53,526 bases of DNA from Pleomorphomonas sp. (GCA_030603685.1 JAUVXG010000009.1:1-53526); one strand, 5' to 3'; shown: positions 20,528-44,850, counted from the first letter of the stretch. Notes: generated by a model not told the origin, from the sequence alone. Numbers and translations are program-made.

Positions 20528-23257
20528 TCAACCATGTGCGCGTCCGATTCCTATCCTGAGGGCCTTCAGCCGGTAGATGGCCTCGAGCGCCTCGCGCGGG
20601 CTGAGTTCGTCGGGCGCCAGCGCGTCGATCGCTGCGAGCAGTTCGGCTTCCGCCGGATCGGGCGCTGATTCCGCCGGCGCCGACGGGGTTGGATGACGGG
20701 CGAGCGAGAACAGCGGCAGGTCGTCGAGCATGGAGGCGGCGTTGTTTCCGCCGGATTTTTCCAGTTCGGCGAGGACGGATCGCGCCCGTTCGATCACCGG
20801 CCGGGGCAGGCCGGCGAGCTTGGCGACCTGGATGCCGTAGGACCGATCGGCCGAACCCGGCACGATCTCGTGTAGGAACACGACGTCGCCACGCCACTCC
20901 TTCACCTTGACGGTGGCGTTGACGACGCGCGGCAGGCGTTCTGAAAGCGCGGTCAGCTCGTGGTAGTGCGTCGCGAACAGCGTGCGGCAGCGATTGGCTT
21001 CGTGCAGATGCTCGATGGTGGCCCAGGCGATGGACAGGCCGTCATAGGTGGCCGTGCCGCGGCCGATCTCGTCGAGGATGACGAAGGAACGCGGCCCCGC
21101 CTGATTGAGAATGGCCGCCGTCTCGATCATCTCCACCATGAAGGTGGAGCGGCCACGCGCCAGATCGTCGGCGGCGCCAACGCGTGAGAACAGCCGGTCG
21201 ACCACGCCGATGTGCGCCGACTTGGCCGGCACGAAGGAGCCGATCTGGGCGAGCACGGCGATCAGCGCATTCTGCCTCAGGAAGGTCGATTTACCGGCCA
21301 TATTGGGGCCGGTGACCAGCCAGAGCTTGCCGGCGGCCTCGCCACCGACATCGCAGCCGTTGGCGACGAACGATCCTCCGTCCTCGCGCAGAACCTGCTC
21401 GACCACCGGATGGCGACCGCCATCGATGCGGAAGGTGAGGCTGTCGTCGACGCGCGGGCGGACATAACCCTCGGCGGCTGCGAGTTCGGCAAGCGCGGTG
21501 GCAACGTCGAGCGCGGCCAGCATGTCGGCCGCCCGCTTGATGGCGGTGCCAGCTTCCATCGTCTCGCGGGCGAGCTCGGCAAAAACCGAGAGTTCCACGG
21601 CCAAGGCCCTCTCCGCCGCGGAGGCGATGCGCCCCTCGAGTTCGGACAGCTCCGTGGTCGAGAAACGCATGGCGCCGGCCAGGGTCTGCCGGTGAATGAA
21701 CAGCCGGTTGAGCGGCTCGCTGGTCATCGCCTGGGCGTAGTTCGGCGCCACCTCGATGAAATAGCCGAGCACGCCGTTGTGCCGCACCTTCAACGACTTG
21801 ATGCCGGTCGTCTCGGCATAGGTCTGCTGCAGGGCGGCGATCACCTGCCGGCTTTCGTCGCGCAGGGCGCGTGCCTCGTCGAGATCGGCACGGAAGCCCG
21901 GGCGCACGAAACCGCCATCACGCTTCAGGAGGGGCAGTTCATCGTCGAGCGCGGCGGTCAGCCGTTCGGCGAGGTCGGCCGGCGCGGCTTGGAGGCCATG
22001 GGCAATACGCTCGATCTCCGGTCCCGCGCCGCCGGCTTCCCTGAGATCGCCGGCCAACTGGGCGGCGGCGGCGAGGCCACCGGCACTGGCGGCGAGATCG
22101 CGCGGGCCGCCCCGCTCGAGGCTGATGCGGGTGAGGGCGCGGGCCATGTCCGGCGCACCGGCCAGATCCCGGCGCAGCCGGGCTCGAAGCGTTGTCTCCG
22201 AGACGAAGAAGTCGACCGCATCGAGGCGGTCACGGATGCCGTCGGGGTCGGCGAGCGGCGCGGCGAGACGGTCGGCGAGAAGGCGAGCCCCGGCGCCCGA
22301 AACCGTACGGTCGATGGCGTGAAGCAGCGAACCGCGCCGTTCGCCGGACAGCGTTCGCGACAGTTCGAGATTGGCCCGGCTGGCGGCGTCGATGGCCACT
22401 GCGCCACCAAGGCTTTCGCGGGCCGGCGGGTCGAGCAGCGGCCGGTTGCCGACCTGTGTCTTGTCCACATAGGCGACGATGGCGGCGGCGGCGGTCAGCT
22501 CCAGCCGTGAGAAGCTGCCGAAAGCGTCGAGCGAGGCGACGGAGAAGAAGTCGGCGAGCCGGTGCTCGGCGGTAGCGGCGTCGAAAAACGCACGCGGCAG
22601 CGGCACCACGGCCTGGCTTGCCGCCTTGAACGTCCTGCGGAGTTCGTCGTCGTCGAACAGGCCGTCGGCGGCCAGGAGCTCACGCGGCTCGATGCGCGCA
22701 AGCAGCGCCGGCAGCGCGGCGGCGGTGGTTTCCGCCAGCCGGAAGATGCCGGTCGACATGTCGGCCCAGGCGACGGCGAAGCTGTCGGCGGCGCTCTCGG
22801 TTCCCTTCTGGCGGGCGACGGCCGCGAGATAGTTGGAACGGCGCGCGTCGAGAAGGTTATCCTCGGTCAGGGTGCCGGGCGTGACGAGCCGGACGACGTC
22901 GCGTCGCACCACCGATTTGGAACCGCGCTTCTTGGCTTCCGCCGGATCCTCCATCTGCTCGCAGACGGCGACGCGGTGACCGAGCGCGATGAGGCGCTGA
23001 AGGTAGTCGTCGGCGGCATGCACCGGCACGCCGCAAAGCGGAATATCCTCGCCGCGATATCTGCCGCGCTTGGTCAGCGTGATGCCGAGAGCCCGGGATG
23101 CGACCTCGGCATCCTCGAAGAACATCTCGTAGAAGTCGCCCATCCGATAGAACAGAAGGCAGTCGGGATTGGCCGCCTTGATCTCGATGAACTGCGCCAT
23201 GGCGGGCGTCGCCCCGTCGGCGGTCCGGTCGTCTGGAAGGGCTTGAACGTCGGTCAT
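20528..23257 (-). CDS. mutS: DNA mismatch repair protein MutS
   Basis: The 909-residue protein has the mismatch-reading motif [11 protein letters not shown] (Phe42, Glu44), a connector and lever/clamp region (~130–600), and the C-terminal ABC ATPase with Walker [11 protein letters not shown], Walker [17 protein letters not shown] and a final ~90-residue tail typical of MutS1. It recognises mispaired bases and recruits MutL. I chose the ATG of [10 protein letters not shown] at 23257; the upstream frame adds six residues with no support. The long N-terminal lead-in before [12 protein letters not shown] is usual for alphaproteobacteria. Confidence 0.97.
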
Positions 23258-23330
23258 GGGGGCGGAAGCTAACAAAGCCCGCGACGCTTTTCACGCGTCA
23301 AATGACCGACGGTTCAGGTTATCCAGCCCG

Positions 23331-24149
23331 TCATTCCGGCACGGGCGAGGGGCGCGTCAGCACGCCTTCGCCGTAGTTGGCCTTGTCGCGGGTTCGATGC
23401 GATCCGAGGTTCTCCGAGGCAAGGTATGTCCAGATATCCTCCGCCGTCTCGGCGAAGTGGACGAGGCCGATGTCCTCGCGATTGATCATGCCGTAGTCGG
23501 CCAGCGCGTCGAAATTGATGACCTTGTGCCAGTATTCGCCATCCACCAGCACCACGGGAATGCGGGTGCCCTTGTGGGTCTGGGTCAGCGTCAGAAGCTC
23601 GAACAGCTCGTCGAAGGTGCCGAAGCCGCCGGGGAAGACGATCAAGGCATTGGCGCGCATGGCCAAATGCATCTTGCGCATGGCGAAATAGTGGAACCGG
23701 AAGGTGAGCTGCGGCGTCGTATAGGCGTTGGGTTCCTGCTCGTGCGGCAGGGTGATGTTGAAACCGATGGTCGGCGCGCCGGCATCGCGGGCGCCACGGT
23801 TTGCTGCCTCCATGATGCCGGGGCCGCCTCCGGTGGCGATCACGTTGTCGAAGAAGCCGTCGGTACGGTTGACGGCGCCGCCGCGTTCGGAGGCGATACG
23901 GCCGAACTCGCGCGACGTGTTGTACCAGCGATTGTGCAGGGGGTTTCCGTTTTCATGGACACGGGCCGAGCCGAACACCACGAGCGTCGAGCGGATGCCC
24001 CAGGCCTTCAACGTCTGCTCGGCTTTCGAGTACTCGAGCATGAATCGGACGCCGCGCATCGAGTCCGAAAGAAGGAACTCGTCGTCGATGGCTGGCAGGA
24101 CGAAGGCCTTGGAGGTCTTCTGGGCGGTGTTGTCGGCAATGTCGGTCAT
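23331..24149 (-). CDS. LOG family protein (TIGR00730-like)
   Basis: The 272-residue protein has the Rossmann-like LOG fold with VVFGSARVHE near 55, the nucleotide motif ATGGGPGIMEAANRGA, and the catalytic signature MRKMHLAMRANALIVFPGGFGTFDELFE. PGGxGTxxE is the hallmark of phosphoribohydrolases of the LOG (cytokinin-activating) or PpnN type, which split nucleotide monophosphates to a base and ribose 5-phosphate. At ~270 residues it is longer than the ~190-residue LOG enzymes. The true substrate is unknown. I chose the ATG at 24149. It lies 73 bp upstream of mutS on the same strand. Confidence 0.88.
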   Translation of the reverse strand: MTDIADNTAQKTSKAFVLPAIDDEFLLSDSMRGVRFMLEYSKAEQTLKAWGIRSTLVVFGSARVHENGNPLHNRWYNTSREFGRIASERGGAVNRTDGFFDNVIATGGGPGIMEAANRGARDAGAPTIGFNITLPHEQEPNAYTTPQLTFRFHYFAMRKMHLAMRANALIVFPGGFGTFDELFELLTLTQTHKGTRIPVVLVDGEYWHKVINFDALADYGMINREDIGLVHFAETAEDIWTYLASENLGSHRTRDKANYGEGVLTRPSPVPE

Positions 24150-24324
24150 GCGGTCAGTCCAGGATTTCCGGCCAGAAGCGGCGATAGCGAGGATAGGGAT
24201 CGGCATCTTAAGGAACGCTGAAACACGGCCGCACTGTGGCAGGAAGGCGTCTAGGGGCGCCCTGCGTCCGCCTGAGGACCGGCAGCAACGGATATAATCG
24301 TTCCCGAATCAGACCGTTCGCTTC

Positions 24325-27300
24325 ATGGAAAGGCGCTTGAACCGACGGCGGCAGCTGGAGCTGAAACTGGACGAAGACCTGACGATCGACGAGGCCCGCC
24401 ATCCCCAGGCGTCGGATGCCGCCGCATCCTCCCGCCGCGATGCCGCACGCCTGCTGCTCGCTCGCGGGAACTGGGCGGAAGGGTTCGTCGATTTCGAGCA
24501 CCGGCCCTTTGCTGCGCCGTCAGACCGGCCACTTTGGAGCGGCGCGCGTTTGCCGGCGGCTCGTCTGGTCGTGCTCGCCGAGAGCGACGAATGCGACACG
24601 CTTGCCTTTGCGCGCTTCCTGCCCGACCTCGCCGCCCGTGTGCTGTCTCTGACGCTCGCTGTGCCAGCCGACGAGGTGGAACGCCTCATGTCCTTCGCCG
24701 GCGCCTTCGGCGGCGTACCGCTCGTCGACGCGACCTGCCTGCCGCCACACGATCTCGTCCTGCCGCTCGCGTCCGCCCCGATGGTGCTCGGCCTGTCGCC
24801 GGAGGAGGTGCCGCCGCCTCGCCTTGCGCAGCGCGCACGGCGAAATGGTGGGGCGATTGGCCTGGCTTTGGCATCTTCGCCATGGAGCTCCAGGGATGAG
24901 ACGGCGCCGGGGCGCGTCGTCGCTGCGCTTCGTCAGGCCTTTCCCGGCCAGAGATTGATGGCGCTCGATCAGGCAGCCGCCTCGCAGTTGGGCGACAAGG
25001 CTGGCGAAGCCGATCCTGCCGCGCTTGCCGAGCTAGACCTCGTCGTTGCCACCGATGGTCCGGTGGCTCATGCCGCAGGGGTCGTCGGCGCACCACTCTG
25101 GCTGCTGCTCGATGACGAGCCGCCTTGGATGTGGGGGCGCCAGGGGCTGTTCAGCCGCTGGTATCCCACCGCGCGCCTCTTTCGCGCTGATGGGCCGGGT
25201 TGGCTTGGCGTGGTCGAGGCGGTTGCGGCCGAGGCCAGGGCGCTTGCCGCTTCCGGACTCTCCGACATCGCTGCCCTTGATAGGCTTGCGGTGGCAGCGG
25301 AAGGTGTCGATGGCGAGTCCGCGGCCCGTGCCGCCCTGCCGTTTGCCGCCCGTCTGGTGGCGCTCGAGCCGACTGTTCCTGCTCGATGGGCGCGGCTTGC
25401 CGGGCTGCTGCTCCGCTTCGGCGACGTGGAAGATCTCGATCGGGTGTTGGGCATAGGCTTGTCCGTCGGGGCCCGTCACGCGCCGCTGCTGCTGTTTGCC
25501 GCCCACCGCGACCTTGAGCGGGGCAAGCCCGCCGCAGCCCTCCGATACGCCGATCTGGCGCTGGGCGCCGACCCTGCCGCGACGGATGCGTTGACGATCC
25601 GTGCCGATGCCTTCCTGGCGCTCGGTGATCTTTCCAAGGCGGAGTTCGCACTCCGCCAGGCGGTGCAGGCCGCCCCGCGCCGAGCCCGTCTTCTGGTCGC
25701 CTGGGGCGACATGCTGAGAAAGCTCGGTGACGTTCGCGGAGCCTCCAGGGCCTTCGAGCGGGCCGTCATCGCTGGCGATGACGCCGATGCTCGACTGGGA
25801 CTCGGACGCTTGGCCGAAGCGGCCGGGGAGACCGGCCTAGCCTTGCATTTCCTGGGATCCGCCCTGGCGCGCGATGGCGGTCACACCGAGGCGGCCATGG
25901 AGTTTGCGCGCATTCTTGCCGCGGCCGGCCGCAATCGCGAGGCCATCGGAGTTCTGCGCCGCCTCATCGTCCATCGTCCGTCTCCCCCGGCCCGCGCCTT
26001 CCTTGGGGAGTTGCTTCTGGCCTCCGGGGACTTTGCGGCCGGTCTTGCCGAGTTCGAATGGCGCAATGGCGAGGCCCGCGCGCTTCCGAGCGCGACCGAT
26101 CTCGTCGATAGGAACGTCGTTCTGGTTGCCGAGGGTGACGTCGGCGCCTTGATTCGCTTTCTGCGGTTTGTTCCCATGCTCAAGGCAGCCGGCGCGGCCG
26201 GCGTTCGCCTTGCCGGCGCCGACGAGTTGGCGCCGATCCTCGCCGCTGTCGACGGGCTCGACGGCGGTGGAGAGCCCGAAGAGGGCGATCTGGTGCTGCC
26301 GATGATGAGCGTGCCCGCGCTGCTCGGCCTCACCGTGGACGACCTGTCGGTTTCGCATGCCTATATGAGGGTCGATCCCGTGGCGGTGACCAACGCGGCG
26401 CGGGCGTTCGCCCACCTCGACGGCTTTCGTGTCGGTTTCGCGCTCGACGGCATGAGTGCCGCCGATGCCGCCGCCCTTGCCACCGTCTCCGGTGCTGCGT
26501 TCGTCGCCCTCGACGCTGGAGCGGCGGCACGCTTCCATACGGCCTGGCCGCTTGCCGTCGATCAGGCCGGTCTCGACAGGGTTGCCGCCGCGTTGCCGAA
26601 TCTCGACGCCGTGGTCGCCATGGCATCGAGCCCGATCGCCGCGCTGGCTGGCGCCATGGGGCGGGCCGTCTTCGTCATTGGGCCGGACCGCGATGATTGG
26701 CTCTGGCTGGAGAAGGACGGGCGCACGCCCTGGTTCCCGACCACCCGTCTCTTTCGTCGGCGGCTCGGCGACGAAAAGGGCGCTTCGCTTTCCCGACTGA
26801 CCGATGCGCTGGCGTCTTTCGCCTCCGGCGACCGAGCCATTCCGTTTCGTGTCGAACCGGCGCCGACGGCCATGGCGATTTCCGAAAGTGAGCCTTTCGC
26901 TTCTCCCAGCAGCATGCTCGCGCAAGCCGGCCTTGCGGCGTCCAGAAGCCGCGACGACTACCGTGCCGCGCTATTGCTCGGCGATGCCATTGCGGCGGGA
27001 GCCAGCGAGCCGGAGCTGCGGGAGACGCTTGCTGCCGCGCTTCTGCGGATCGGCGAACGTGACCGGGCCGGACGCCTGCTCGCCGCGCTGGTTGCCGAGG
27101 CGCCCACCGCCGAACGGCTCGTCGAACTGTCGGAGGTCGATCGTCTGGGCGGCCGGCTCGAAGAAGCGCTCGCTCATGCCGAGCGGGCGGTCGAACTTCG
27201 GCCCGACGCCGCAGGGCCTCATCGAGCCGTCGGCAAGGCCCTGGTGGCGCTTGGCCGTGCAAGAGAGGCGCTTGCCGCTTACAGTCGCGCCTTGGCGCAG

Positions 27301-28203
27301 GCCCCAGCCGATCCCGAACTGTTGATGGACGAAGCGGAAGCGCTGCTGATTGCCGGCGACTACAAGAACGGCTTTGCCCGCGCGGAGGTGCGCTGGCGGG
27401 CGCCCGAATTGCTGCCGCGTCGCTTCTCGGCTCCCCGCTGGGGCGGCGAGGACATCCGCGGTCGGACGCTGCTCGTTCATGGCGAGCGGGAACTGGGGCT
27501 CGACATCGCCTTTGCGCGTTTCCTGCCGCAGCTTGCCTTGCAAGGGCCCCGCCTGATCATTGAAGTCCGCCCCGCACTCACGGATCTGTTCCGACGGCTC
27601 GATCTCGGTGGAGACGTGACGGTGGTCGAGCAGGGTCGCCGCCTGCCGCCCCATGATCTGGAAGTCCCGCTTCGGAGCCTGCCGAACGTGTTCGGCATCG
27701 AGCGGGACGGTTTGCCGCCACCCGCCCGTTTCCAGCCTGACCCCTTGCGGGTTGAGGCTTGGCGGCGGCAGTTCGGCGGAGGTGACGGTCGGCCGGCCAT
27801 CGGCGTTTACTGGCGAAACGCAGAGGATGCCGCTCTTTTGGCATCGCTTGCCGACGTCCACGACATTCGCCTGTTTGCTCTCGATCGCCGCGCCGGCAGG
27901 GCCTCGCTCGCAATGCTGCCGAACGGCCTGGGCATGGAGCCGCTCGGCGATCGGCTTGGCGGCTTCGTCGAGATGGCCGCGGCCATGACGGCGCTGGACG
28001 CGGTGATTGCCCCGGTCTCGGCTACCGGCCATCTCGCCGCCTCGCTCGGTCGGCGGACGATCGTCGTCGCTCGGTCGGCCACCGATTGGCTTTGGATGGG
28101 AGAGGACCGCACGCCCTGGTATCCCGACGCTCACTTGTTGCGCCCGGATGGTGATCTCGCCGGGCTCCTGCGCGCCCTGGTTCTCGAAAGGGCGGCGACA
28201 TGA
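24325..28203 (+). CDS. giant TPR protein with three glycosyltransferase-like (GT41/GT9-type) modules
   Basis: The 1292-residue protein has no signal peptide or membrane segment. Three modules repeat the C-terminal domain of bacterial TPR glycosyltransferase-like proteins. Each has a GrtLLxxxExxxxDxxxFaRFLP-type start, an xHLAGALG-type helix and a final WYPTxRLFR. Module 1 (~45–300) has VAHAAGVVG (His249) and WYPTARLFR. Module 2 (~570–830) has IAALAGAMG (Ala773 in place of His) and WFPTTRLFR. Module 3 (~1010–1290) has TGHLAASLG (His1236) and WYPDAHLLR and best keeps the family opening (PRWGGEDIRGRTLLVHGE). TPR-like helices lie at ~390–560 and ~890–1005. The last codons overlap the next gene by 4 bp (ATGA). 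The GT-B donor-site motifs look weakened, so a sugar-transfer activity is inference; a scaffold or binding role is possible. Confidence 0.8.
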   Translation: MERRLNRRRQLELKLDEDLTIDEARHPQASDAAASSRRDAARLLLARGNWAEGFVDFEHRPFAAPSDRPLWSGARLPAARLVVLAESDECDTLAFARFLPDLAARVLSLTLAVPADEVERLMSFAGAFGGVPLVDATCLPPHDLVLPLASAPMVLGLSPEEVPPPRLAQRARRNGGAIGLALASSPWSSRDETAPGRVVAALRQAFPGQRLMALDQAAASQLGDKAGEADPAALAELDLVVATDGPVAHAAGVVGAPLWLLLDDEPPWMWGRQGLFSRWYPTARLFRADGPGWLGVVEAVAAEARALAASGLSDIAALDRLAVAAEGVDGESAARAALPFAARLVALEPTVPARWARLAGLLLRFGDVEDLDRVLGIGLSVGARHAPLLLFAAHRDLERGKPAAALRYADLALGADPAATDALTIRADAFLALGDLSKAEFALRQAVQAAPRRARLLVAWGDMLRKLGDVRGASRAFERAVIAGDDADARLGLGRLAEAAGETGLALHFLGSALARDGGHTEAAMEFARILAAAGRNREAIGVLRRLIVHRPSPPARAFLGELLLASGDFAAGLAEFEWRNGEARALPSATDLVDRNVVLVAEGDVGALIRFLRFVPMLKAAGAAGVRLAGADELAPILAAVDGLDGGGEPEEGDLVLPMMSVPALLGLTVDDLSVSHAYMRVDPVAVTNAARAFAHLDGFRVGFALDGMSAADAAALATVSGAAFVALDAGAAARFHTAWPLAVDQAGLDRVAAALPNLDAVVAMASSPIAALAGAMGRAVFVIGPDRDDWLWLEKDGRTPWFPTTRLFRRRLGDEKGASLSRLTDALASFASGDRAIPFRVEPAPTAMAISESEPFASPSSMLAQAGLAASRSRDDYRAALLLGDAIAAGASEPELRETLAAALLRIGERDRAGRLLAALVAEAPTAERLVELSEVDRLGGRLEEALAHAERAVELRPDAAGPHRAVGKALVALGRAREALAAYSRALAQAPADPELLMDEAEALLIAGDYKNGFARAEVRWRAPELLPRRFSAPRWGGEDIRGRTLLVHGERELGLDIAFARFLPQLALQGPRLIIEVRPALTDLFRRLDLGGDVTVVEQGRRLPPHDLEVPLRSLPNVFGIERDGLPPPARFQPDPLRVEAWRRQFGGGDGRPAIGVYWRNAEDAALLASLADVHDIRLFALDRRAGRASLAMLPNGLGMEPLGDRLGGFVEMAAAMTALDAVIAPVSATGHLAASLGRRTIVVARSATDWLWMGEDRTPWYPDAHLLRPDGDLAGLLRALVLERAAT

Positions 28204-29651
28204 CCGAAACGGTCGTCGATCAACTGCTGGCTCGCGCCGCAGCCGCCGAGGATGCCCACAAGTGGATCGAGGCGGTGGCTCTCTATGAGGTGGCGCTCGT
28301 TCGGTCACCGGACCATGTACCGGCAATGCTCGGCGCTGCAGCCGCCGCACGCGCCAATGGTGATCACGCCCGCGCCGTCGTGTTCCTGACGCGCGCCGAC
28401 CGCACCGCGCCCGGCCGCGCCGACATTGCCGTGGCACTCGGCGAAGCGCTCGCGGCGACTTCGCGCCTGTCGGAGGCCGCCGTGGCTTTCGAACGGGCTC
28501 GTGCCGCCAAGCCGCTCGATGCCGGCCTCGCCGCCCGCCTGGGAGCAGCCCGTCTCGCGGCGGGCGATGCTCCTGGGGCGGTCTCGGCGTTCGAGGCGGC
28601 GCTACGTCTCGATCCTGCCGAGCCCCGCGCCCTTGGCGGCCTCGGCCCGGCGCTGGCCTCCGCCGGTCGTCCTCTGGCTGCGCTCGAGGCATTTCGCCGG
28701 TCTGGAGACCCTCGCCCGCGCGCCGAGCGGGCGGCGGCGCTGCTGGCGCTGGGCGACATGGCCGGAGGTTTCGCCGACCTCGATGCCATCGCCGCTCGTC
28801 CGGTCTGGGCGACGAAGCTTCAGGCCTGGGACGGCTTTCCGCTCGACCGTCCGCTATTCGTCTGGGCCGGGGGCGATCCGCTTGATCTCGCCGCTTTTGC
28901 GCCGGCCTTGCCTCTCGCCCGGTCGTTGGTGGCCGACCTCGTTCTGGTGGTTCCCAAGCCTTTCATGCGTCTGGCATCGGCGCTGGCCGGGGTCGGCCGT
29001 GTCGTCGCCGACAATGACGATCTCGGCGGCTTGATCGAGACCGTCGGTGCAGCAGCGCCGCTTGTCGGGCTGCCGCATCGGCTTGGTCTGACGGCGGGTA
29101 GTTTTGCCGCGAACGCCCCGCTGCTGGCCGTCGAACCCATGCTCGCCGACCGTTGGAGCGCCCGGCTCGATCTCGGGCGAGGACGGCCCGCAGTCGGCCT
29201 TGTCTGGGGCGGAGGTTTCGGTCTTGCCGATCTCGAACCGCTCGCCGGCATCGCCGACCTGAGGTTCGTTGCCCTCGAACGATTGCCTTCGGCCACGCTT
29301 GCCCGTTCGTCGTCGCCATCGGGATGGGAGGTTGCCGGCGCGCCGATCCGCGTCGAACATCCCGGCCCCGATTTCGAAGCCGGCATCGACGCCCGCGTCG
29401 ACTGCGCCGCGCTCATCAGCCGGCTGGATGCCGTGATTGCCGTCGACGGCCTGCCGCTTCGCCTGGGAGGTCTGCTCGGGCGTCCCGGTGTCGCGCTCCT
29501 GCCCGTGGCCACCAGTTGGATATGGCGGATCGAAGGTGGCAAGACACCCGTCTATCCGTCGCTGTCGTTGTTGAGGCAGGCGTCGGAGGGACCGCTCGCT
29601 GCCTTGTTGCCAGAAGCGGTCCAACGCATCCGCAGCATGGTCCATGAATGA
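28200..29651 (+). CDS. TPR protein with a degenerate glycosyltransferase-like module
   Basis: The 483-residue protein starts with an ATG that overlaps the previous stop (ATGA), so translation is coupled. TPR helices fill ~1–190 (AVALYEVALVRSPDHVPAML, AAVAFERARAAKPLDAGLAA, GAVSAFEAALRLDPAEPRAL). A glycosyltransferase-like module follows (~210–480) with GLVWGGGFGLADLEPLAGI, a PLRLGGLLG helix in which Arg421 replaces the family's His, and a final PVYPSLSLLRQ in place of WYPTxRLFRQ. It is a shorter, more eroded relative of the upstream protein, probably a duplicate. Function is unknown; it may work in a complex with its partner. Confidence 0.78.
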   Translation: MTETVVDQLLARAAAAEDAHKWIEAVALYEVALVRSPDHVPAMLGAAAAARANGDHARAVVFLTRADRTAPGRADIAVALGEALAATSRLSEAAVAFERARAAKPLDAGLAARLGAARLAAGDAPGAVSAFEAALRLDPAEPRALGGLGPALASAGRPLAALEAFRRSGDPRPRAERAAALLALGDMAGGFADLDAIAARPVWATKLQAWDGFPLDRPLFVWAGGDPLDLAAFAPALPLARSLVADLVLVVPKPFMRLASALAGVGRVVADNDDLGGLIETVGAAAPLVGLPHRLGLTAGSFAANAPLLAVEPMLADRWSARLDLGRGRPAVGLVWGGGFGLADLEPLAGIADLRFVALERLPSATLARSSSPSGWEVAGAPIRVEHPGPDFEAGIDARVDCAALISRLDAVIAVDGLPLRLGGLLGRPGVALLPVATSWIWRIEGGKTPVYPSLSLLRQASEGPLAALLPEAVQRIRSMVHE

Positions 29652-29900
29652 CCGCGAGAGGAAAATCCCACCGGAAATCAGCTGGTTCCGGGAAGCATGT
29701 TGCCGCGGAATGCAAGTCGGACGACAATAGGGGAATGATATTTTACAAACAGGCCGTTCCCTAGGGAATGGTATCTCTTGCCAATTGCACTCGTCCTTTT
29801 AGGATTTCAACCTGTCGGGAGATGCCGAGGCGCCGAGAGGCGCCCGAGGCTTCCGGACAAATGCGATGCAGGGCGTCGCCAAGGGCTGGAGACTGGAAGC
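29652..29900 (+). promoter_or_regulatory. promoter region of the sulfate transporter operon
   Basis: The 249 bp upstream of the binding-protein gene contain an A/T-rich patch (ATGATATTTTACAAAC at 29735–29750) in otherwise GC-rich DNA, followed by the palindrome TTCCCTAGGGAA at 29757–29768. No gene is visible. The frame of the sulfate-binding protein is open back to 29778, but that stretch does not look like a signal peptide. Confidence 0.45.
29731..29776 (+). promoter_or_regulatory. candidate operator: palindrome and paired GGGAATG sites
   Basis: GGGAATGATAT (29731) recurs as GGGAATGGTAT (29764), 33 bp apart (about three helical turns). The second copy overlaps the perfect 12-bp palindrome TTCCCTAGGGAA. 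This arrangement suits a dimeric repressor or activator bound on one helix face. No known regulator site was recognised. Confidence 0.35.
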
Positions 29901-30920
29901 ATGAGAGGCTCGAAACGTCTGGGATTGTTCGCCGCGATCATCGCGGCACCCCTGGCCCTTGCCGGTCCCGTCGCCGCGGTGACGCTGACCAACGTCTCCT
30001 ACGATCCGACCCGCGAGTTCTACGAGGCCTACAATGCTGCCTTCGCTGCCCACTGGAAGGCGGAAACCGGTGAGGACATCGCCATCCGCGCTTCACATGG
30101 CGGCTCCGGCAAGCAGGCGCGCGCCGTCATCGACGGTTTGCCGGCCGATGTGGTGACCCTGGCTCTCGAAAGCGACATCAACGCCATCGCCGAGAGGACG
30201 GGCAAGATCCCGGCCGATTGGCGCGGCAAGCTGCCGCACAACTCCGCACCCTACACCTCGACCATCGTGTTCCTGGTACGCAAGGGCAACCCCAAGGGCA
30301 TCCTGGACTGGGGCGATCTCGTCAAGGACGGCATCGAGGTGATCACTCCCAATCCGAAGACGTCGGGTGGCGCTCGCTGGAACTATCTTGCCGCCTGGGC
30401 CTGGGCGGCTGGTCAGTACGGCGGCGACGAGGCAAAAATCCGCGACTTCGTCTCTACGCTCTACAAGCATGTGCCGGTGCTCGATACCGGCGCTCGCGGC
30501 TCAACCGTCACCTTCGCCCAACGCGAACTCGGCGACGTCCTGCTCGCCTGGGAGAACGAGGCCTTTCTGGCGCTCGATGAGTTCGGCGCCGACAAGTTCG
30601 ATATCGTGGTGCCGCCGCAGTCGATCCTCGCCGAGCCTCCGGTCGCCGTCGTCGAAGGCAATGCCAAGGCCAACGGCGCAGAGAAGGAAGCCCGCGCCTA
30701 TCTCGAATACCTCTATTCTGCCGAGGGGCAGACGCTCGCAGCCAAGTTCCATTATCGTCCGTCCGAGCCGAAGCTGGTCGACCCGGAGCTCTTGAAGGCC
30801 ATCCCCGAACTCAAGCTGATCAGCATCGACGATCCGCTGTTTGGCGGCTGGGCCAAGGCGCAGCCTTACCACTTCGGCGATGGCGGCGTGTTCGATCAGA
30901 TCTACAGGCCGGGACAGTGA
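29901..30920 (+). CDS. sbp: sulfate/thiosulfate-binding periplasmic protein
   Basis: The 339-residue periplasmic solute-binding protein has a signal peptide ([20 protein letters not shown], cleaved near GPVAA–VT). Family signatures are [38 protein letters not shown] and [19 protein letters not shown], the last lining the oxyanion site. It delivers sulfate (or thiosulfate) to the CysTWA transporter. The ATG at 29901 follows GGAGACTGGAAGC and starts a normal signal peptide. It could be named cysP; sbp and cysP paralogues are hard to tell apart. It is the first gene of the operon. Confidence 0.95.
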
Positions 30921-30928
30921 AGGAGCCC

Positions 30929-30949
30929 GCCGGCAGCCCACGTGCCGGC
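30929..30949 (+). other. intercistronic hairpin between sbp and cysT
   Basis: GCCGGCA (30929–30935) pairs perfectly with TGCCGGC (30943–30949) across 7 nt, 8 bp after the sbp stop, without a T tract. Hairpins here commonly protect the binding-protein mRNA from 3' exonucleases and so give more binding protein than permease. The effect is inferred, not shown. Confidence 0.5.
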
Positions 30950-31083
30950 AATGCCGAATGGAGGGAAAGCCAGGTGGATCGCGATGGCGCTGCTCGGCTT
31001 TCTCTGTCCCCCGATCGCACGAGACCTTGCCGCCGGCGGACCGGAACATTCCGATCTGCCGGCTTCCCCTGAAAGCGAGGCCG

Positions 31084-31926
31084 ATGACCCTCAACGCGCC
31101 CTTTGTCAAGCCGAGCATCCTGCCGGGCTTCCGCCTGACGATCGCTTTTACGCTCCTCTACCTGACGGCGATCGTGCTCCTGCCACTCGGCGCCCTTCTT
31201 TTCAGGGCGTCTTCGCTGGGGGTGCATGAGATCGTCGCCCTGGCGCTCGACAGCCGCACGCTGTCGGCGCTGAAGCTGTCCTTCCTCACCAGCTTCGCCG
31301 CCGCCGCTTTCAACGTCCCCTTCGGTCTGCTGATCGCCTGGGTGTTGGTCCGCTACGATTTCCCCGGTCGTCGCTTCTTCGACGCCATCATCGATCTGCC
31401 TTTTGCTCTGCCGACGGCGGTAGCCGGCATTGCGCTGACCGCGCTCTATGCGCCGAAAGGTTGGATCGGATCCGTGGCCGCAGTCTTCGGCCTCAAGATC
31501 GCCTTCACGCCGCTTGGCGTCTTCCTGGCGCTGGTGTTCGTCGGTCTGCCCTTCATCGTGCGTACGGTGCAGCCGGTGCTGGCCGAGGTCGACCGCGAAC
31601 TGGAGGAAGCCGCAGCCACTCTCGGCGCCGGACGGCTCAGAACCGTGGCATCCGTGGTTCTGCCGGTGCTCAGTCCGGCCATCCTGACGGGCTTCGCCCT
31701 GGCGTTTGCCCGAGCGGTCGGCGAATACGGCTCGGTCATCTTCATCGCCGGCAATATCCCCTACGTGTCGGAAATCGCGCCGTTGCTCATCGTCATCAAG
31801 CTGGAAGAATTCGACTATGCCGGCGCCACGGCCGTGGCCGCGATCATGCTGATGATCAGTTTCGGAACGCTGCTTCTCATCAATCTCATCCAGGCCCGGG
31901 CGCGCGCGAGGTATGGTCATGTCTGA
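31084..31926 (+). CDS. cysT: sulfate ABC transporter permease CysT
   Basis: The 280-residue membrane protein has about six hydrophobic segments and the ABC permease EAA loop (VDRELEEAAATLGAGRLRTVASVVLP in pattern, near 165–190). FARAVGEYGSVIFIAGNIP is typical of CysT/CysU. It forms the transmembrane channel with CysW. The ATG at 31084 follows GCGAGG and begins at the family start; the frame is open upstream to 30841 inside the sbp gene and is not used. Its stop overlaps the start of cysW. Confidence 0.95.
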   Translation: MTLNAPFVKPSILPGFRLTIAFTLLYLTAIVLLPLGALLFRASSLGVHEIVALALDSRTLSALKLSFLTSFAAAAFNVPFGLLIAWVLVRYDFPGRRFFDAIIDLPFALPTAVAGIALTALYAPKGWIGSVAAVFGLKIAFTPLGVFLALVFVGLPFIVRTVQPVLAEVDRELEEAAATLGAGRLRTVASVVLPVLSPAILTGFALAFARAVGEYGSVIFIAGNIPYVSEIAPLLIVIKLEEFDYAGATAVAAIMLMISFGTLLLINLIQARARARYGHV

Positions 31927-32839
31927 CGGTTCCATCGCGGCGGCCGTGTCGCTCGATGAGGCGACGTCCACCGGAGACGCCGCCGCGCGCCCGGCGCAGC
32001 GACGCCTGCCGACGGAGGAGGCTCCGTGGGTCAGGCGATTGTTGATCGGGCTGGCGGTTGGCTTTCTGGGACTGTTTCTGCTGCTGCCGCTGATCACTGT
32101 CTTCATGGAGGCGTTCCGCAAGGGAGGCGGAGCCTTCCTCGCCGCTTTCGCCGATCCGGCGGCCATCGACGCCATTCTGCTCACCTTGATGGTGGCGGCC
32201 ATTGCCGTGCCCGCCAACCTCGTCTTCGGCATTTCGGCGGCCTGGGCGATCGCCAAGTTCGATTTTCGCGGCAAGGCCTTCCTCGTCACGCTGATCGACC
32301 TGCCGTTCTCGGTATCGCCGGTGGGCGCCGGTCTCGTCTATGTCCTGCTCTACGCCAGTCACGGCCTCCTGGGGGGGCTGGTTCAGTCGGCCGGCATTCA
32401 GGTCATCTTCGCCCTGCCGGGGATCATCATGGCGACGATCTTCGTCACCTTCCCCTTCATCGCCCGTGAATTGATCCCGTTAATGGAAGAGCTCGGCGAT
32501 ACCGATGAAGAGGCGGCGTTGACGCTCGGTGCCTCCGGATGGCGGATGTTCTGGACGGTAACCTTGCCCAACGTCAAATGGGCGCTTCTCTATGGCGTGC
32601 TGCTCTGCAACGCCCGCGCCATGGGCGAGTTCGGCGCGGTCTCGGTCGTGTCGGGCCATATCCGCGGCTACACCAACACCATGCCGCTCCACATCGAGAT
32701 CCTTTACAACGAATACCAGTTCGTCGCCGCCTTCGCCGTCGCCTCGCTGCTCGCCGCCCTGGCGCTGGTGACGATCGGCGTCAAATCCTGGCTGGAACAT
32801 CGCTACGCCGGCGATCTCGCCGCCGGCCACCGCCACTGA
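31919..32839 (+). CDS. cysW: sulfate ABC transporter permease CysW
   Basis: The 306-residue membrane protein has a ~35-residue polar N-terminus, then about six membrane segments. The EAA loop is [22 protein letters not shown], and [19 protein letters not shown] is a CysW hallmark. It pairs with CysT. I chose the ATG at 31919, where GAGG lies 7 nt upstream; the ATG at 31913 is too close. It overlaps the cysT end by 8 bp, so translation is coupled. Confidence 0.95.
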
Positions 32840-39196: not shown

Positions 39197-40261
39197 ATGA
39201 TGCGGAAGCTCGATATCCTTCTCTACACCCGCGCCTCCGGTGGCGGCGGTGCCGAACGCGTCTGGGCCATTCTTGCCAACGGTCTCGCGGCGCGCGGCCA
39301 CCGCGTCACCTTCGCTTTCGATGAAACCACGGCCAACGATGGCGTCGATCCGGCCGTCGAGACGATCGAGGTCGGCAAGCGTCACCCCGTTGCGGTGCTA
39401 CGGCTTGCCCGCTTGCTTCGCACTCACCGGTTCGACGTGATCGCCGGCGCCGTATCGGTGTCCTGCGTCAAGCTCGCCCTTGCCAAGGTTCTTGCCCTGT
39501 CTCGGACGCCACTTGTCTTTTCCTATCACGGGTTTGAGGAGTACAAGACGGGCCGCCTGTCGGCTGCCGGTTTTTACGCCTTGCCGGCGCTCGCACCGTT
39601 GGTTCGTCGCTTCGTCGGCGTCTCCGATGGCATCGTTCGGGCGCTGGTCGAACGTTGGCACGCGCCGGAGGGGCGGACGGAACGCATCTACAATCCGGTG
39701 CCATTGCTCGCCGCCGCCGCCGTCGAGGAGATCGCTGCCCGGCCTCCGATCGTCGGCGCCGTCGGCCGCCTGTCGAGAGAAAAGGGGATGGACGTGCTGG
39801 TCGATGCCTTCGCCCGTCTGACCACCCCTGGCGCAACCCTCGTCATCGGTGGCGACGGTCCGGAGAGAGAGAGGCTGGCCGAGCAGGTGGCAGCGCTCGG
39901 CATCAGCGGCCGGGTCCGCTTTCTCGGCCGGGTTTCGTCGGCAGCAGAGGTTTATGGCCAGTCGCGCGTCGCGGCCGTGCCGTCACGCACCGAAGCCTTC
40001 GGCATGACCACCGTCGAGGCGCTGTCGGCAGGTCTCGCGGTGGTCGCATCCGATTGCGAAGGGTCGCGGGAGATTCTGGCCGGACGCTACGGCACGCTCG
40101 TTCCGGTCGGCGCCGCTGCCGCCATGGCGACGGCGCTCGACCGGGCGTTGGCGGCGGCGCCCAATCCCGACCCGGGTGTCTCCCGGGCTCGAGAGTTCTC
40201 GGTCGAGGCCGGCCTCGATCAGTGGGAGCGACTGTTCGCCGGTCTGGCGGCGACGGACTGA
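39197..40261 (+). CDS. GT4-family glycosyltransferase
   Basis: The 354-residue GT-B enzyme begins LDILLYTRASGGGGAERVWA (Gly-rich donor loop), then has IVGAVGRLSREKGMDVLVDA and GDGPERERLAEQVAALGISGRVRFLG, and the catalytic EX7E motif in EAFGMTTVEALSAGLAVVAS (~265–273). It should transfer a sugar from a nucleotide donor to a polysaccharide precursor. Two adjacent ATGs (39197 and 39200) follow GGAG; the second has better spacing. The last 43 bp overlap the 3' end of the convergent minus-strand glycosyltransferase gene. No membrane segment is seen. Confidence 0.92.
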   Translation: MMRKLDILLYTRASGGGGAERVWAILANGLAARGHRVTFAFDETTANDGVDPAVETIEVGKRHPVAVLRLARLLRTHRFDVIAGAVSVSCVKLALAKVLALSRTPLVFSYHGFEEYKTGRLSAAGFYALPALAPLVRRFVGVSDGIVRALVERWHAPEGRTERIYNPVPLLAAAAVEEIAARPPIVGAVGRLSREKGMDVLVDAFARLTTPGATLVIGGDGPERERLAEQVAALGISGRVRFLGRVSSAAEVYGQSRVAAVPSRTEAFGMTTVEALSAGLAVVASDCEGSREILAGRYGTLVPVGAAAAMATALDRALAAAPNPDPGVSRAREFSVEAGLDQWERLFAGLAATD

Positions 40262-41463
40262 CGGGACGGCATGCCGGCACGTCCAAGAGCGATATGCCGC
40301 TCGAACAGCTTCGGCATCTGCACGGCGACCGAGTAAGGCGTCACCTTGGCGCGGATCGTCGCGGGGTGGAGCCGACCGGCCGCGATGTCCGCCGCCAGCC
40401 GCGCAAAGCTGCTGGCCATGGCCTCTGCGGCGGCCTCGCGGTCTTCGGGCCGTTCAACGAGGAAGCCCGACACGCCCGTCTCGATCAGCGGATCGTACTG
40501 CGGCAGCCGGATCGCACCCATCGGACGACCGCTCGAAAGCGTCTCAAGAAGATAGCAAGGCATGCCTTCGAAGTAGGAGGTGAGGATGCCGCTGTGGCAG
40601 TTGCGCATGATGGCCGATACGCCATCGCCCGTCTGGAAGCCGTGGCGAATGGTGAAGGGCTCGATGGCCGCGAACTCCTTGTCGCGGTGCGGGTCGGATG
40701 TGCCGACGTAATGGAACTCCAGCTTGCCGTCGAGCTTGGCATGGAGCCGCCGCAACGTCTCGAACATCAGCGGCGGATCCTTGAAGGCGTCGAGCCGGCC
40801 GGCGAACACCACGCGAAACACGTCGCTTGAGGGGAAGGGGGCGACCGGGAAGCGCTCGGTGTCGACCGAGACGGTCATGAATTCCGCCTTGCGGGCGACC
40901 CTCGGCATTTCGCGCTCGTAGCGGGCGATGATGTTGGGGTTCACGCCGACGACGCGCGTGGCAAGCGCCAGGCCGATCTTCTCGCTGAGGCGGTGAAGCC
41001 AGAAGTGACGGCCGAGAAGGCTGTCCATCTTGTCGCCCTTGGTCTCCTCGTTGTGCACGAGCTGCACCACCGGGTGACCGAGCAGACGGGCCGGGATCGC
41101 CTGTTCGAAGCGTTCGATCTCGGTCGAGGCGGTCTCGCCGGCCGCGAGGCGCCGAATGGTCAGGAGATGACGCATGATGCCGAGGGTAAAGCGCAGCGTC
41201 ACCGAGTCGGTGATCTTCTTTGCCGCCGCGTGCATCGTCTCGCCGGGGATGTGCACCACCGGAAGGAAGTCGATACGGCGCCCCTCAAAGTCGATCTGCA
41301 CCGGCTTGCCGATTTCAAGGTCACCGCGTTCGTCGATGCCGACGAGGAGAACCGATACGTTGTCGGGGTGACGCGACAGCATCAGCCGAACGTGAGTTTC
41401 GACGCCGCCGACCTTGCCGCCGCGCGGATCGATCGAGTGGAAGAGCGTTATGCGATGCGTCAT
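40219..41463 (-). CDS. GT4-type glycosyltransferase
   Basis: The 414-residue protein begins MTHRITLFHSIDPRGGKVGGVETHV-type sequence, with a Gly-rich loop. VFRVVFAGRLDAFKDPPLMFETLRRL and the EX7E motif in SYFEGMPCYLLETLSSGRPMGAI mark the GT-B C-terminal half. Charged insertions (~110–150) could be membrane-associated helices. It is likely to extend a surface glycan. I chose ATG 41463 at the start of family-like sequence; the frame is open upstream inside the GT26 gene's shadow. It starts 7 bp after the GT26 stop on the same strand. Its own 3' end overlaps the plus-strand glycosyltransferase gene by 43 bp. Confidence 0.9.
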   Translation of the reverse strand: MTHRITLFHSIDPRGGKVGGVETHVRLMLSRHPDNVSVLLVGIDERGDLEIGKPVQIDFEGRRIDFLPVVHIPGETMHAAAKKITDSVTLRFTLGIMRHLLTIRRLAAGETASTEIERFEQAIPARLLGHPVVQLVHNEETKGDKMDSLLGRHFWLHRLSEKIGLALATRVVGVNPNIIARYEREMPRVARKAEFMTVSVDTERFPVAPFPSSDVFRVVFAGRLDAFKDPPLMFETLRRLHAKLDGKLEFHYVGTSDPHRDKEFAAIEPFTIRHGFQTGDGVSAIMRNCHSGILTSYFEGMPCYLLETLSSGRPMGAIRLPQYDPLIETGVSGFLVERPEDREAAAEAMASSFARLAADIAAGRLHPATIRAKVTPYSVAVQMPKLFERHIALGRAGMPSRQSVAARPANSRSH

Positions 41464-41470
41464 CGTACGG

Positions 41471-42337
41471 TCACCCCTCTCCGATCGTCTTGTCGGGAAC
41501 CGGCGTCGAGCGCCGCCACGACAGCCGGGCTGCCATCTCGCGGGCGTTGTACCGCATGAGATAGAGCGCCGAGAGCGCATAGCGTTTGCCGAGGCGGCGT
41601 GGATCGTGAACGAGCCGCCACAACCATTCGAGACCGACTGTCTGGAGCACTTCCGGTGCTCGGCTCTGGCGGCCACCGATGAAATCGAGCGCCGCGCCGA
41701 TGCAGACGAAGGTGACGCCGGGCGCCCAGCGGCGGGCGAACTCGGCGAAAATCTCCTGCTTGGGGGCGCCAAGCGCCACGAAGCAGATCCGGGCGCCGCT
41801 CGCTGCGATGCGTTCGGCGGCGGCTCGGGCGTCCACACCGAAGGGACTGAAGCCGTAGGGAGGACTTTCGAAGTCGGCAACGATGAGACGCGGGTACTCG
41901 CAACGGAGCACCGCCACGCTGGTGGCGAGCGTCTCCGGGCTCGTACCGAAGAAGTGCACGGGAACGCGGGCAAGCGCCGCCGCCCCGCAGAGTGGGCGCA
42001 CAAGATCTGCACCGGTGACGCGAACGAGGCTCGCACCCTGCCGGCGCGCCATGGCCACAACCGGGGCGCCATCGGCGGAGACATATGTCGCCTGATCATA
42101 TGCTGCGCGGAAGGCCGGATCGTGCTCCAGCTTGACGAGATGGTCGAGGTTCAGCGTGAAAACGGTGCCACCCCGGCCGGTCAATGCGTCAAAGGTGACG
42201 AGATGGACGAGGTCGGCTTGCTTTCCGATGTTGACGCGGATCGTGTCGATCGTGGCGATCGGATCGGGTGTGCGGCCGGACTCTGCAGACTTTGCGGCTT
42301 CGGTCGAAACCGGACGATCGATGAACAGACCTGACAT
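41471..42337 (-). CDS. WecG/TagA/CpsF-family glycosyltransferase (GT26)
   Basis: The 288-residue enzyme has the GT26 pattern: VFTLNLDHLVKLEHDPAFR, SADGAPVVAMAR (Asp of the catalytic loop), VHFFGTSPETLATSVA, and FVALGAPKQEIFAEFA with the family's GxPKQE, then GLEWLWRLVHDPRRLGKRY. Family members add ManNAc, ManNAcA or similar sugars to a lipid-linked intermediate. It lacks membrane segments but its Arg-rich C-terminus (RRLGKRYALSALYLMRYN) can bind the membrane surface. It starts at ATG 42337, with an A/T-rich promoter-like region upstream. It heads a two-gene operon with the GT4 gene. Confidence 0.93.
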   Translation of the reverse strand: MSGLFIDRPVSTEAAKSAESGRTPDPIATIDTIRVNIGKQADLVHLVTFDALTGRGGTVFTLNLDHLVKLEHDPAFRAAYDQATYVSADGAPVVAMARRQGASLVRVTGADLVRPLCGAAALARVPVHFFGTSPETLATSVAVLRCEYPRLIVADFESPPYGFSPFGVDARAAAERIAASGARICFVALGAPKQEIFAEFARRWAPGVTFVCIGAALDFIGGRQSRAPEVLQTVGLEWLWRLVHDPRRLGKRYALSALYLMRYNAREMAARLSWRRSTPVPDKTIGEG

Positions 42338-42645: not shown

Positions 42646-44850
42646 TCAGGCGCGCTCCGCCATGGCGAGGCTGTCCGCGCGTTCGTGAACCAGTACCACG
42701 CCGGCGAACGCAGGCAGGATGCCGGCCAGGTCGCGCACCATTTCCGCAGCCTCGTCGTCCTGTTCGATGATCGCGTCGGCGACGATCAGAACGGCATCAA
42801 CCCGGCCGAGAAGTGCCTGGAACAGCTCGGGCGAGTGGCGGTGCCCGCAATGCAGGATGATGCGGCCAAAATCCTGGGACAGCTTCTCGACGAAGTCGGC
42901 GACGCGGGTGACGTCGGCGGCGATGTCGGCCGCCAAGTCCGGGCCTCCGACGCCGATGAGGGTCAGATCCGGTCCTTCCTCGCAGAGCGCGATGCTGGTC
43001 GCGTCGGCTCTGCCGGCTATCACGTCGATGACGCCCGGGATCGCCTCGTCGACATAGGCGCGATGCAACGGAAGCTCATCCCAGGATGCATCGATGAGCA
43101 GAACGCCATCCCTGGTCGGCACATGGGCGAGGCCGAAGGCAATGGTCGCCGCCGCCGGGCCGTGGTCGGCGCCGAGCACGAGAACCAGACGCGATGCGCC
43201 GGCTGCCGCCGTGATCTTGCGAACAAGCGCTCCGAAAGCCTCGGAGGAAGCCGGGCTCGGCAGGCCGTCGCCATCGGTCAGGGCGCTGGTCAGGATGGAG
43301 TGCGGTGTCCGCTCGGTGGGCCGGCCGCGGTGGTCTGGCTCAAACGGGCGTGTGGCCACCGTGAACTCCGCGAGGACCGATGGCGCCGCCGGTTCTTCGG
43401 CCGTTGCGCTGCCTGGCAGACTGTCGCTCTCCTCCAGAACGGCCGGTGGCTGCGTGCCGGGAAGGTCCTCTTCCGGTGAGAACGCCGGGTCTTCCCGGGT
43501 GTGGAGCGAGCCGGTATCGATGGGCGCCGCGAATGCCTCTTCGTCGGCTTCCGCATATTCCGGCAAAAAGCGGCGGCCGCGATAGACTGCGATGGTCAGG
43601 GCAAGACCAAGACCGGCGATGCCGCAAAGAGCAAGGATGAGGGTCTGGCGTGGCGCATAGGGAGACAGCGGAATGTTGGCCGGCGCAATGACGCGCGCGT
43701 CCGACACCTGCGTGTTGGCCTGCAGGGTGATTTCCTCGGTGCGCGCGACATAGGTCTTGTACATGTCGGCACGGAGCGAGGCTTCGTTCTCGAGTTCGCG
43801 CAGCTCAATGGTTCGTTCGCTGGTGTCGGTGACCACGGCGCCGGCATCGTCGAGCGCCTTTCGTGCCGCTGCTTCGGCAGCCGCCGCTACCTGATACTCC
43901 GCGTCGGCGCTGACGGAGAGCGTCTTGAGTTCGCCTTCGATCTGGGATTCGGCACGGACGAGATCGGCGCGCGCCGCCACCATGCGGGGATGGTTCGGGC
44001 CGAGATCCTGGCCAAGCTCGCCGACGGTGCGAGCGGCGAGCGCCCGTTCGATCTTGAGACGGCTCAGAACCGTGGAATCTATGCCGGTCAGAGCGGCATC
44101 CGATCCGCCGGCTCGGGCTGCGGCGATCTTGTCGCGGCGGGCCTTGGCATCCTGGGTGCGAACGCGGGCGGCGACATAGGCGTCGTTGAGCTGGCGTAGC
44201 GTATCCTCGTCCACCGAACGGCCGTTTGCCGTCAGGATTCCATGATTGCGGCGGTAGGCTTCGAGCTTTTCCTGAGCGGTGCGTGCCTTGGCCCTGAGGT
44301 CGTCGAGCTGACGGTTGATGAGGTTGCTCGCCTCGCGGACCGCCGCCTGCTTCACCTCGACCTGATTGGCGACGAACGCCTCGGCCAGTTCCTGGGCAAT
44401 GCGGACGGCGCGGTCGGCCGATTTGCTGCGAACCGAAATGTCGAGCACGTAGGTCTGGTCGGCGCGCTCCACCTTGATGGCCTTGACGAGCGCCCTCAGG
44501 GTCTGGTCGCGGCTGCCGCCGAACTCGGGGTCACTCTGGAGCCCCAACGTATCGATGACCGTCGAGAGGATCGCGGCGGACGTGACGACGTTGGCCTGGG
44601 TGTCGATCCAGACGGCATCGACGCCCTGCAGCGGCTGGGACAGGCCGGGACCGGCGACCACCTGCTTGTCGCGCGGGTCGAGCAAGACTCTGGCCGTCGA
44701 CTGCCAAACCCGCGGGGCAAACGTCGCGTAGGCAAAGCCGGCGCCGACAAACAGCAGCGTCACGATCGCGATCAGTTTCCACTGACGGAGCAGGATGGAA
44801 AGCAACAGGCCGATGTCGACCTCGCCCGGGCGCCGTGCTTCCTCGGTCAT
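42646..44850 (-). CDS. Wzc/ExoP-like polysaccharide co-polymerase with degenerate ATPase motifs
   Basis: The 734-residue inner-membrane protein has a Wzz domain with a first membrane segment (~24–46; WKLIAIVTLLFVGAGFAYAT) and a long periplasmic coiled coil (~160–370; NLINRQLDDLRAKARTAQEK). A second segment (~398–420; QTLILALCGIAGLGLALTIA) and a cytoplasmic BY-kinase-like domain (~530–730) follow. The usual Walker A (GxxxxGK[ST]) is replaced by LGADHGPAAAT near 555 with no Lys. Walker A' reads LLIDASWDELPLH and Walker B reads IILHCGHRHS, both altered. There is no Tyr cluster at the C-terminus. So it probably controls chain length or export without kinase activity. A ~100-residue Pro/Glu-rich linker separates the membrane from the domain. 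ATG at 44850. Confidence 0.9.
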   Translation of the reverse strand: MTEEARRPGEVDIGLLLSILLRQWKLIAIVTLLFVGAGFAYATFAPRVWQSTARVLLDPRDKQVVAGPGLSQPLQGVDAVWIDTQANVVTSAAILSTVIDTLGLQSDPEFGGSRDQTLRALVKAIKVERADQTYVLDISVRSKSADRAVRIAQELAEAFVANQVEVKQAAVREASNLINRQLDDLRAKARTAQEKLEAYRRNHGILTANGRSVDEDTLRQLNDAYVAARVRTQDAKARRDKIAAARAGGSDAALTGIDSTVLSRLKIERALAARTVGELGQDLGPNHPRMVAARADLVRAESQIEGELKTLSVSADAEYQVAAAAEAAARKALDDAGAVVTDTSERTIELRELENEASLRADMYKTYVARTEEITLQANTQVSDARVIAPANIPLSPYAPRQTLILALCGIAGLGLALTIAVYRGRRFLPEYAEADEEAFAAPIDTGSLHTREDPAFSPEEDLPGTQPPAVLEESDSLPGSATAEEPAAPSVLAEFTVATRPFEPDHRGRPTERTPHSILTSALTDGDGLPSPASSEAFGALVRKITAAAGASRLVLVLGADHGPAAATIAFGLAHVPTRDGVLLIDASWDELPLHRAYVDEAIPGVIDVIAGRADATSIALCEEGPDLTLIGVGGPDLAADIAADVTRVADFVEKLSQDFGRIILHCGHRHSPELFQALLGRVDAVLIVADAIIEQDDEAAEMVRDLAGILPAFAGVVLVHERADSLAMAERA

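Follow-up and report, generated by a model that had tools for sequence, protein, structure and literature searches.

The window analysed here is a 53,526-nucleotide stretch of Pleomorphomonas sp. DNA (GCA_030603685.1 JAUVXG010000009.1:1-53526), read 5' to 3' on one strand. A preliminary description, made from the sequence alone, had reported two overlapping genes holding four copies of one module, and the open reading frames, profile matches and fold models confirm this; P0001 and P0002 are both present as described (Table 1). The 12 genomes that carry the degenerate pair, the window's own and 11 of the 13 other genomes of the genus Pleomorphomonas, are referred to below as the crown.

Table 1. 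Features of the array locus, with coordinates counted from the first nucleotide of the window.
Feature	Coordinates	Strand	Evidence
mutS, leftward of LOG gene	20531-23275		
LOG/lysine-decarboxylase-like gene, left anchor of locus	23334..24206	-	Pfam; synteny
TATAAT upstream of P0001	24293..24298	+	alignment: 12/12 species
P0001, three-module TPR/pseudo-GT protein, 1292 aa	24325..28203	+	ORF; orthologs in all 12 crown genomes, 67-91% identity
Module M1 of P0001, aa 68-309, GT9-like domain	24526..25251	+	profile match
TPR superhelix between M1 and M2, aa 313-585	25261..26079	+	Pfam TPR; AF2 model
Module M2 of P0001, aa 586-835, GT9-like fold	26080..26829	+	profile match; Z 17.3 to 3tov
TPRs between M2 and M3, aa 866-1035	26920..27429	+	Pfam TPR
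Module M3 of P0001, aa 1036-1292, least diverged module	27430..28200	+	profile match
ATGA stop/start overlap, P0001/P0002	28200..28203	+	
P0002, one-module TPR/pseudo-GT protein, 483 aa	28200..29651	+	ORF; orthologs in 12 genomes, 73-94% identity; AF2
TPRs of P0002, aa 1-206			
Module M4 of P0002, aa 207-483, GT9-like fold	28818..29648	+	profile match; structure superposition
Sulfate-type ABC transporter genes (binding protein and two permeases)	29778..32836	+	Pfam; synteny

The ABC transporter genes are the right anchor of the array in genome G008 and in the crown; we take them to be of the sulfate type from gene order and general knowledge. The names murJ and glnD, used for minus-strand open reading frames near the locus, come from size and gene order rather than from Pfam. 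A GT4-type glycosyltransferase gene (40222-42099) and a gene for a large Wzz/GNVR chain-length-type protein (42649-45765) lie downstream of the array and are apparently a polysaccharide gene group.

The TATAAT upstream of P0001 is probably a -10 box, judging from its conservation in every one of the 12 species. The annotated start of P0001 (24325-24390) is doubtful: in G003, upstream indels leave the ATG in a different frame from the conserved LELKLDEDLTIDE stretch, the region is divergent in G002, and a TAG precedes the same conserved stretch in G010. Across 12 species the 36 bp at 24355-24390 show nucleotide-level conservation (pS 0.135), with a single occurrence in the genome, and this is possibly a regulatory or unusual start region.

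Searches of the two proteins against Pfam give confident matches to TPRs only; Glyco_transf_9 matches P0001 at E=0.19 and 11.5 bits, below the Pfam cut-off of 22, and has no match to P0002. The same family is matched by 14 of 16 intact modules from relatives (best 1.5e-6). When 12-species profiles of the modules were compared with a profile built from the intact modules of relatives, the matches were strong for all four (M1, E=2e-32; M2, 2.8e-35; M3, 1.3e-55; M4, 4.3e-42). AlphaFold2 models have a pLDDT of 91.9 for P0002 and 84.0 for residues 1-870 of P0001. The M4 model superposes on the GT9 structure 3tov with a Z of 17.8 over 250 residues (3.3 A) and on 1psw with a Z of 17.3; for M2 the values are Z 17.3 over 234 residues (3tov) and Z 16.5 (1psw). 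The GT9-like fold proposed earlier is thus borne out in these two models, as is the GT-B fold for which a structural check had been suggested. Because of the profile matches and superpositions we regard the four as homologous GT-B modules rather than a chance resemblance, with predicted structures superposed for M2 and M4, M1 lying within the P0001 model, and M3 assigned by homology. Although the best rows of a whole-chain Foldseek search with P0002 include the TPR-GT41 proteins SPINDLY and OGT, the models indicate that the GT domain proper is GT9-like.

A deep profile of intact modules reached GT9 chains in the PDB at E 0.24-0.53 only, and for this reason a residue-level mapping onto PDB donor sites was dropped and the role of the lost loop described below is drawn by analogy. 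In the crown genomes the deep-profile search finds only the four array modules, apart from a single additional module in G001 and another in G012. These two are single-module TPR-GT9 genes outside the array (L074 5390-7450 and L075 5349-6737; G012 and G001), and the G001 gene is a good match to the intact profile (E=2.6e-93).

The window pair belongs to a family of 3+1 TPR-GT9 arrays, in which a three-module chain is followed by a one-module gene, with orthology by position. A search for the same gene pair and module count in related genomes, advised in the preliminary description, finds both with intact motifs in sister genera and Agrobacterium vitis: the layout is present in G007, a basal Pleomorphomonas, in the sister-genus genomes G014, G018 and G019, in two A. 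vitis genomes, in a Rhizobium MAG and in another alphaproteobacterial MAG. Other tandem arrays of such modules occur in Bradyrhizobium, Magnetococcales, Oryzomonas, Burkholderia and others. Three tandem copies with a fourth next door, taken at first to be unusual, are therefore shared by several other genera, and the module count is not the novelty. On a LOG tree both G007 and G008 fall outside the crown, the node that joins G008 to the crown having support of only 88/74 and involving long branches. In a tree of 35 modules, built without A. vitis, M1, M2, M3 and M4 each lie on one side of a branch; this grouping by position across genera implies that the duplications predate the split of those genera.

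The intact arrays are surrounded by recurring genes that encode a giant repeat exoprotein, DUF6165, a GT4-type glycosyltransferase, a C39-like type I secretion ABC protein and HlyD. A. vitis and G007 have the full cassette around their 3+1 arrays; G014, G018, G019, the Rhizobium MAG and L087 have most of its genes or the whole set, some of them clipped by contig ends. The exoproteins have an RTX/M10_C-type C-terminus and, in the parts read, repeats of about 46 residues with 15-18% Thr, 8-9% Ser and no Cys. That of G007 is an open frame of 3805 residues with an RTX-like end (L196 from 11420 plus L064 to 4804; G007:C34:207410-218803). An additional minus-strand methyltransferase gene (L064 12093-12761) lies between the array and the GT4 gene in G007; A. 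vitis and G014 show no such gene there. DUF6165 is a separate gene ahead of most intact 3+1 arrays, and is in frame with TPR-GT9-like proteins in Bradyrhizobium, Azospirillum, Methylocella and Planctomycetes (L088, L097, L105, L106, L112, L113, L138, L147, L161); because of this shared frame, DUF6165 is probably part of the same process as the TPR-GT proteins. In the literature covered, and with the terms used, we found no paper that joins TPR glycosyltransferases to type I secretion and no description of the cassette.

In G007 the gene order is trpS-murJ-glnD-mutS-LOG, with the cassette directly after. In G008, as in those crown genomes that were read, the array pair follows mutS-LOG, with the sulfate ABC genes next; at the window locus the exoprotein, DUF6165, GT4, ABC and HlyD genes are absent and the array genes alone are left. 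The exoprotein has no matches in 13 of the 14 genomes of the genus (all but G007), including the single-contig G012, and the cognate ABC gene was not found in the genus genomes without the exoprotein, which give matches at the level of paralogs only (best 36% identity). DUF6165 persists away from the array site in G001, G003, G009 and G010. The site has lost the cargo and its exporter and retains the array.

We scored the state of the modules on 59 columns conserved at 85% or more among 142 outside modules, and positions such as Q20 and D24 follow the numbering of this profile. Outside modules keep 43-59 of these columns and those of G014, G018, G019 and G007 keep 49-57, while M1, M2, M3 and M4 of the window keep 35, 30, 34 and 29. 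The graded decay first described among the modules is not supported by these counts, and the same pocket positions are lost in all four. G008 is intermediate, with M1 gone, 42 columns kept in both M2 and M4, and 51 in M3; on this evidence the gradient runs from one species to another, with G007 intact, G008 half-way and the motifs lost in the crown, and not mainly from module to module.

The positions Q20, Q27, R138, Q160, T209 and R233 are lost in all four modules of the 12 crown genomes, six shared losses compared with 1.4 expected under independence (p=0.0012 by shuffling, which treats columns as exchangeable and makes our p values approximate). With T209 set aside, these positions are present in 87-99% of the 142 outside modules and in none of the 48 crown modules. 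Conserved polar columns are kept at 37% in crown modules versus 62% for the others (p=0.002), whereas in intact relatives they are kept at 96% versus 87-89%. No crown module has the set of active-module motifs (EQGxGD, GNPxxxxDRGRS, LQ, DTxxxHLAG and WRW..PWYP). The GNPxxxxDRGRS span is 19-20 residues in intact modules and only 8-9 in M2, M3 and M4 of the window; in M1 it is 17 residues and the motif is absent.

Each module shows its own combination of losses. M1 keeps the Asp of GLGD, D208 and H249, with D24, D208 and H213 (profile numbering) kept in 10 to 12 of the 12 crown species, and has lost Q20, W126, R138, Q160, R233 and about 40 residues. In M2, A773 replaces the His and both D24 and the GNP..RS loop are lost; M3 keeps H1236, although the Asp of GLGD is replaced (now LGLD) and the GNP..RS loop is deleted; and in M4, R421 replaces the His and the loop is deleted. 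H249, A773, H1236 and R421 had been numbered exactly in the preliminary description, and its statement that the His of 'xHLAGxxG' is kept in M1 and M3 and lost in M2 and M4 holds for all crown copies, although neither of the kept copies is a full HLAG (AHAAG in M1, GHLAA in M3). The His-bearing M1 and M3 have also lost other pocket positions, and we rejected the His alone as a gauge of decay, as it is one mark among many and misleads on these two modules. Many of the replacement residues do not vary among the crown genomes, such as LD-I-A-F in M3 and PDRDDWLWLE in M2. The near-invariance of the lost positions in outside modules, and the analogy to GT9 and TibC, suggest that these positions form the donor pocket; the R138 region would correspond by position to the donor-binding basic region of GT9/TibC, and the lost loop may contact the donor. 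Disarmament of the array, in the sense of a predicted loss of catalysis, is well supported by these motif losses, and we infer that the crown array lacks enzymatic activity.

The predicted loss of catalysis has not been accompanied by loss of selection. Between crown species, dN/dS (Nei-Gojobori) is 0.08-0.36 in all seven array segments, for pairs with dS up to about 1.2; the values are 0.06-0.23 for LOG and 0.09-0.11 for the intact A. vitis arrays. Protein distance relative to LOG is 1.2-2.2x in intact lineages versus 3-7x in the crown, where it is lowest for the P0002 TPRs. In 12 of 12 genomes both frames stay open along nearly their entire length, the start region excepted. The crown array is under weaker constraint, not neutrality, and purifying selection persists. 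We do not claim that a burst along the crown stem gave way to constraint, as the rate relative to LOG is still high within the crown. A non-functional relic in slow decay, with frames open only because the loss is recent, would account for the raised rate, for dN/dS above that of LOG, for the TAG before the conserved frame in the G010 assembly and for the poorly conserved start region, but we consider it unlikely given the low dN/dS in every segment over such divergent pairs, the full-length genes in all 12 genomes, the invariance of many of the new residues, and the loss of polar pocket positions with structural positions kept, which is unlike random decay.

Our preferred explanation, to which we give a probability of roughly 0.6, is that the window holds an orphaned, catalytically disarmed array retained as a TPR/GT-B binding scaffold. 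It draws on homology, synteny, the absence of the cassette genes, parallel residue loss, purifying selection and fold models. In the intact cassette, the array would glycosylate the giant Thr/Ser-rich repeat exoprotein in the cytoplasm ahead of type I secretion, the TPRs holding the client while several GT9-like domains add sugar. Such glycosylation is the most likely activity of the intact form given the gene linkage, the exoprotein's composition and the examples of FlmG and TibC, and linkage is what points to the exoprotein as the putative client. In the crown lineage the five cassette genes would have been lost from the site with the two array genes staying, and the cargo-less array would then have lost catalysis through the same polar pocket positions and GNPxxxxDRGRS in all four modules, retaining its GT-B fold and TPRs. 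The crown proteins, kept by selection, most likely serve now as non-catalytic scaffolds that bind another protein as client. This proposed role follows from the loss of the pocket with the TPRs and fold kept, and from two precedents: TibC K230A, which is deficient in sugar binding, is still in stable complex with its substrate TibA (PMC4358343), so that a disarmed glycosyltransferase can stay a client binder, and the TPRs of FlmG, without the GT domain, bind flagellins (PMC7591256). The cytoplasmic scaffold suggested at the outset, in non-catalytic form, is therefore plausible, and the sugar-binding array suggested beside it is unlikely, since what the modules have lost is the conserved polar positions of the pocket.

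Two observations count against the scaffold reading: M1 keeps D24, D208 and the His, such that some residual or altered chemistry in this module is conceivable, and a rate of 3-7x LOG fits both slow decay and a new role. Cargo loss could have come before or after the first catalytic losses, as either order fits; catalytic loss goes with loss of the neighbouring exoprotein and secretion genes. The earlier proposal of duplication followed by loss of catalytic motifs is right about both events but not about duplication as the lead-in, which the position-grouped tree indicates is far older than the catalytic loss. The wider proposition, that there has been wholesale conversion to a four-domain pseudoenzyme scaffold that organises or chaperones a different client across the whole crown, and that the intact relatives are an undescribed system in which giant type I exoproteins are glycosylated by tandem GT9-like modules linked by TPRs, we put forward only tentatively. 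The locus would be a same-site case of an enzyme array that is retained although every domain has given up catalysis once cargo and exporter had gone; it is a natural setting in which to ask whether glycosyltransferases, when disarmed, turn into binders, and the intact cassette suggests a route for bulk glycosylation of giant type I secreted repeat proteins.

Two further alternatives fare worse than the relic. Modules that are still active, with altered donor or chemistry, would be consistent with the retained GT-B fold and with the three M1 residues kept in most or all species, but this is improbable when positions so prevalent among the outside modules are found in no crown module, the GNP..RS motif is gone from all four, and one of the lost positions, R138, lies in what may be the donor-binding basic region. 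The least probable is that the pair has no relation to the exoprotein and acts on flagellin, either as a glycosyltransferase like FlmG or as a chaperone: FlmG shares the TPR and GT-B plan and has flagellin-binding TPRs (PMC7591256), and flagellins are encoded in 17 of 17 genomes tested, but no flagellar genes lie next to the locus, intact arrays adjoin the exoprotein and exporter, and flagellins, being present with intact or degenerate arrays alike, leave the decay unexplained and were rejected as a discriminating partner.

Returning to the proposed scaffold, several known systems share parts of its plan. The arrays of A. vitis and the Rhizobium MAG (L084-L087), for which we found no characterisation, have the same gene pair and 3+1 module count, and differ in having intact catalytic motifs and the exoprotein cassette. 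The GT9 ADP-heptose:LPS heptosyltransferases (WaaC, WaaF 1psw; 3tov) share the GT-B fold, the D-T-x-x-x-H region and a GD near the first strand, although they are without TPRs, act on an LPS acceptor and keep their catalytic residues. OGT and SPINDLY (GT41) have the overall plan of TPR superhelix and GT-B, but with one catalytic domain per chain, and the array GT domain fits OGT only at large rmsd, in contrast to its close superposition on GT9 (3.3 A over 250 residues). The TibC/AAH bacterial autotransporter heptosyltransferases (BAHT; PMC4358343), likened here as a functional analogy only, are heptosyltransferase-like cytoplasmic GT-B proteins that hyperglycosylate an exported adhesin, and their oligomer similarly brings together many active sites; they are, however, active, form a dodecamer rather than tandem TPR-linked modules, and serve type V and not type I secretion. 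FlmG of Caulobacter crescentus (PMC7591256), compared by description, is likewise cytoplasmic, with N-terminal TPRs that recognise the client followed by a GT-B domain, but it has one active module acting on flagellin, whereas the array described here has four disarmed modules on two chains.
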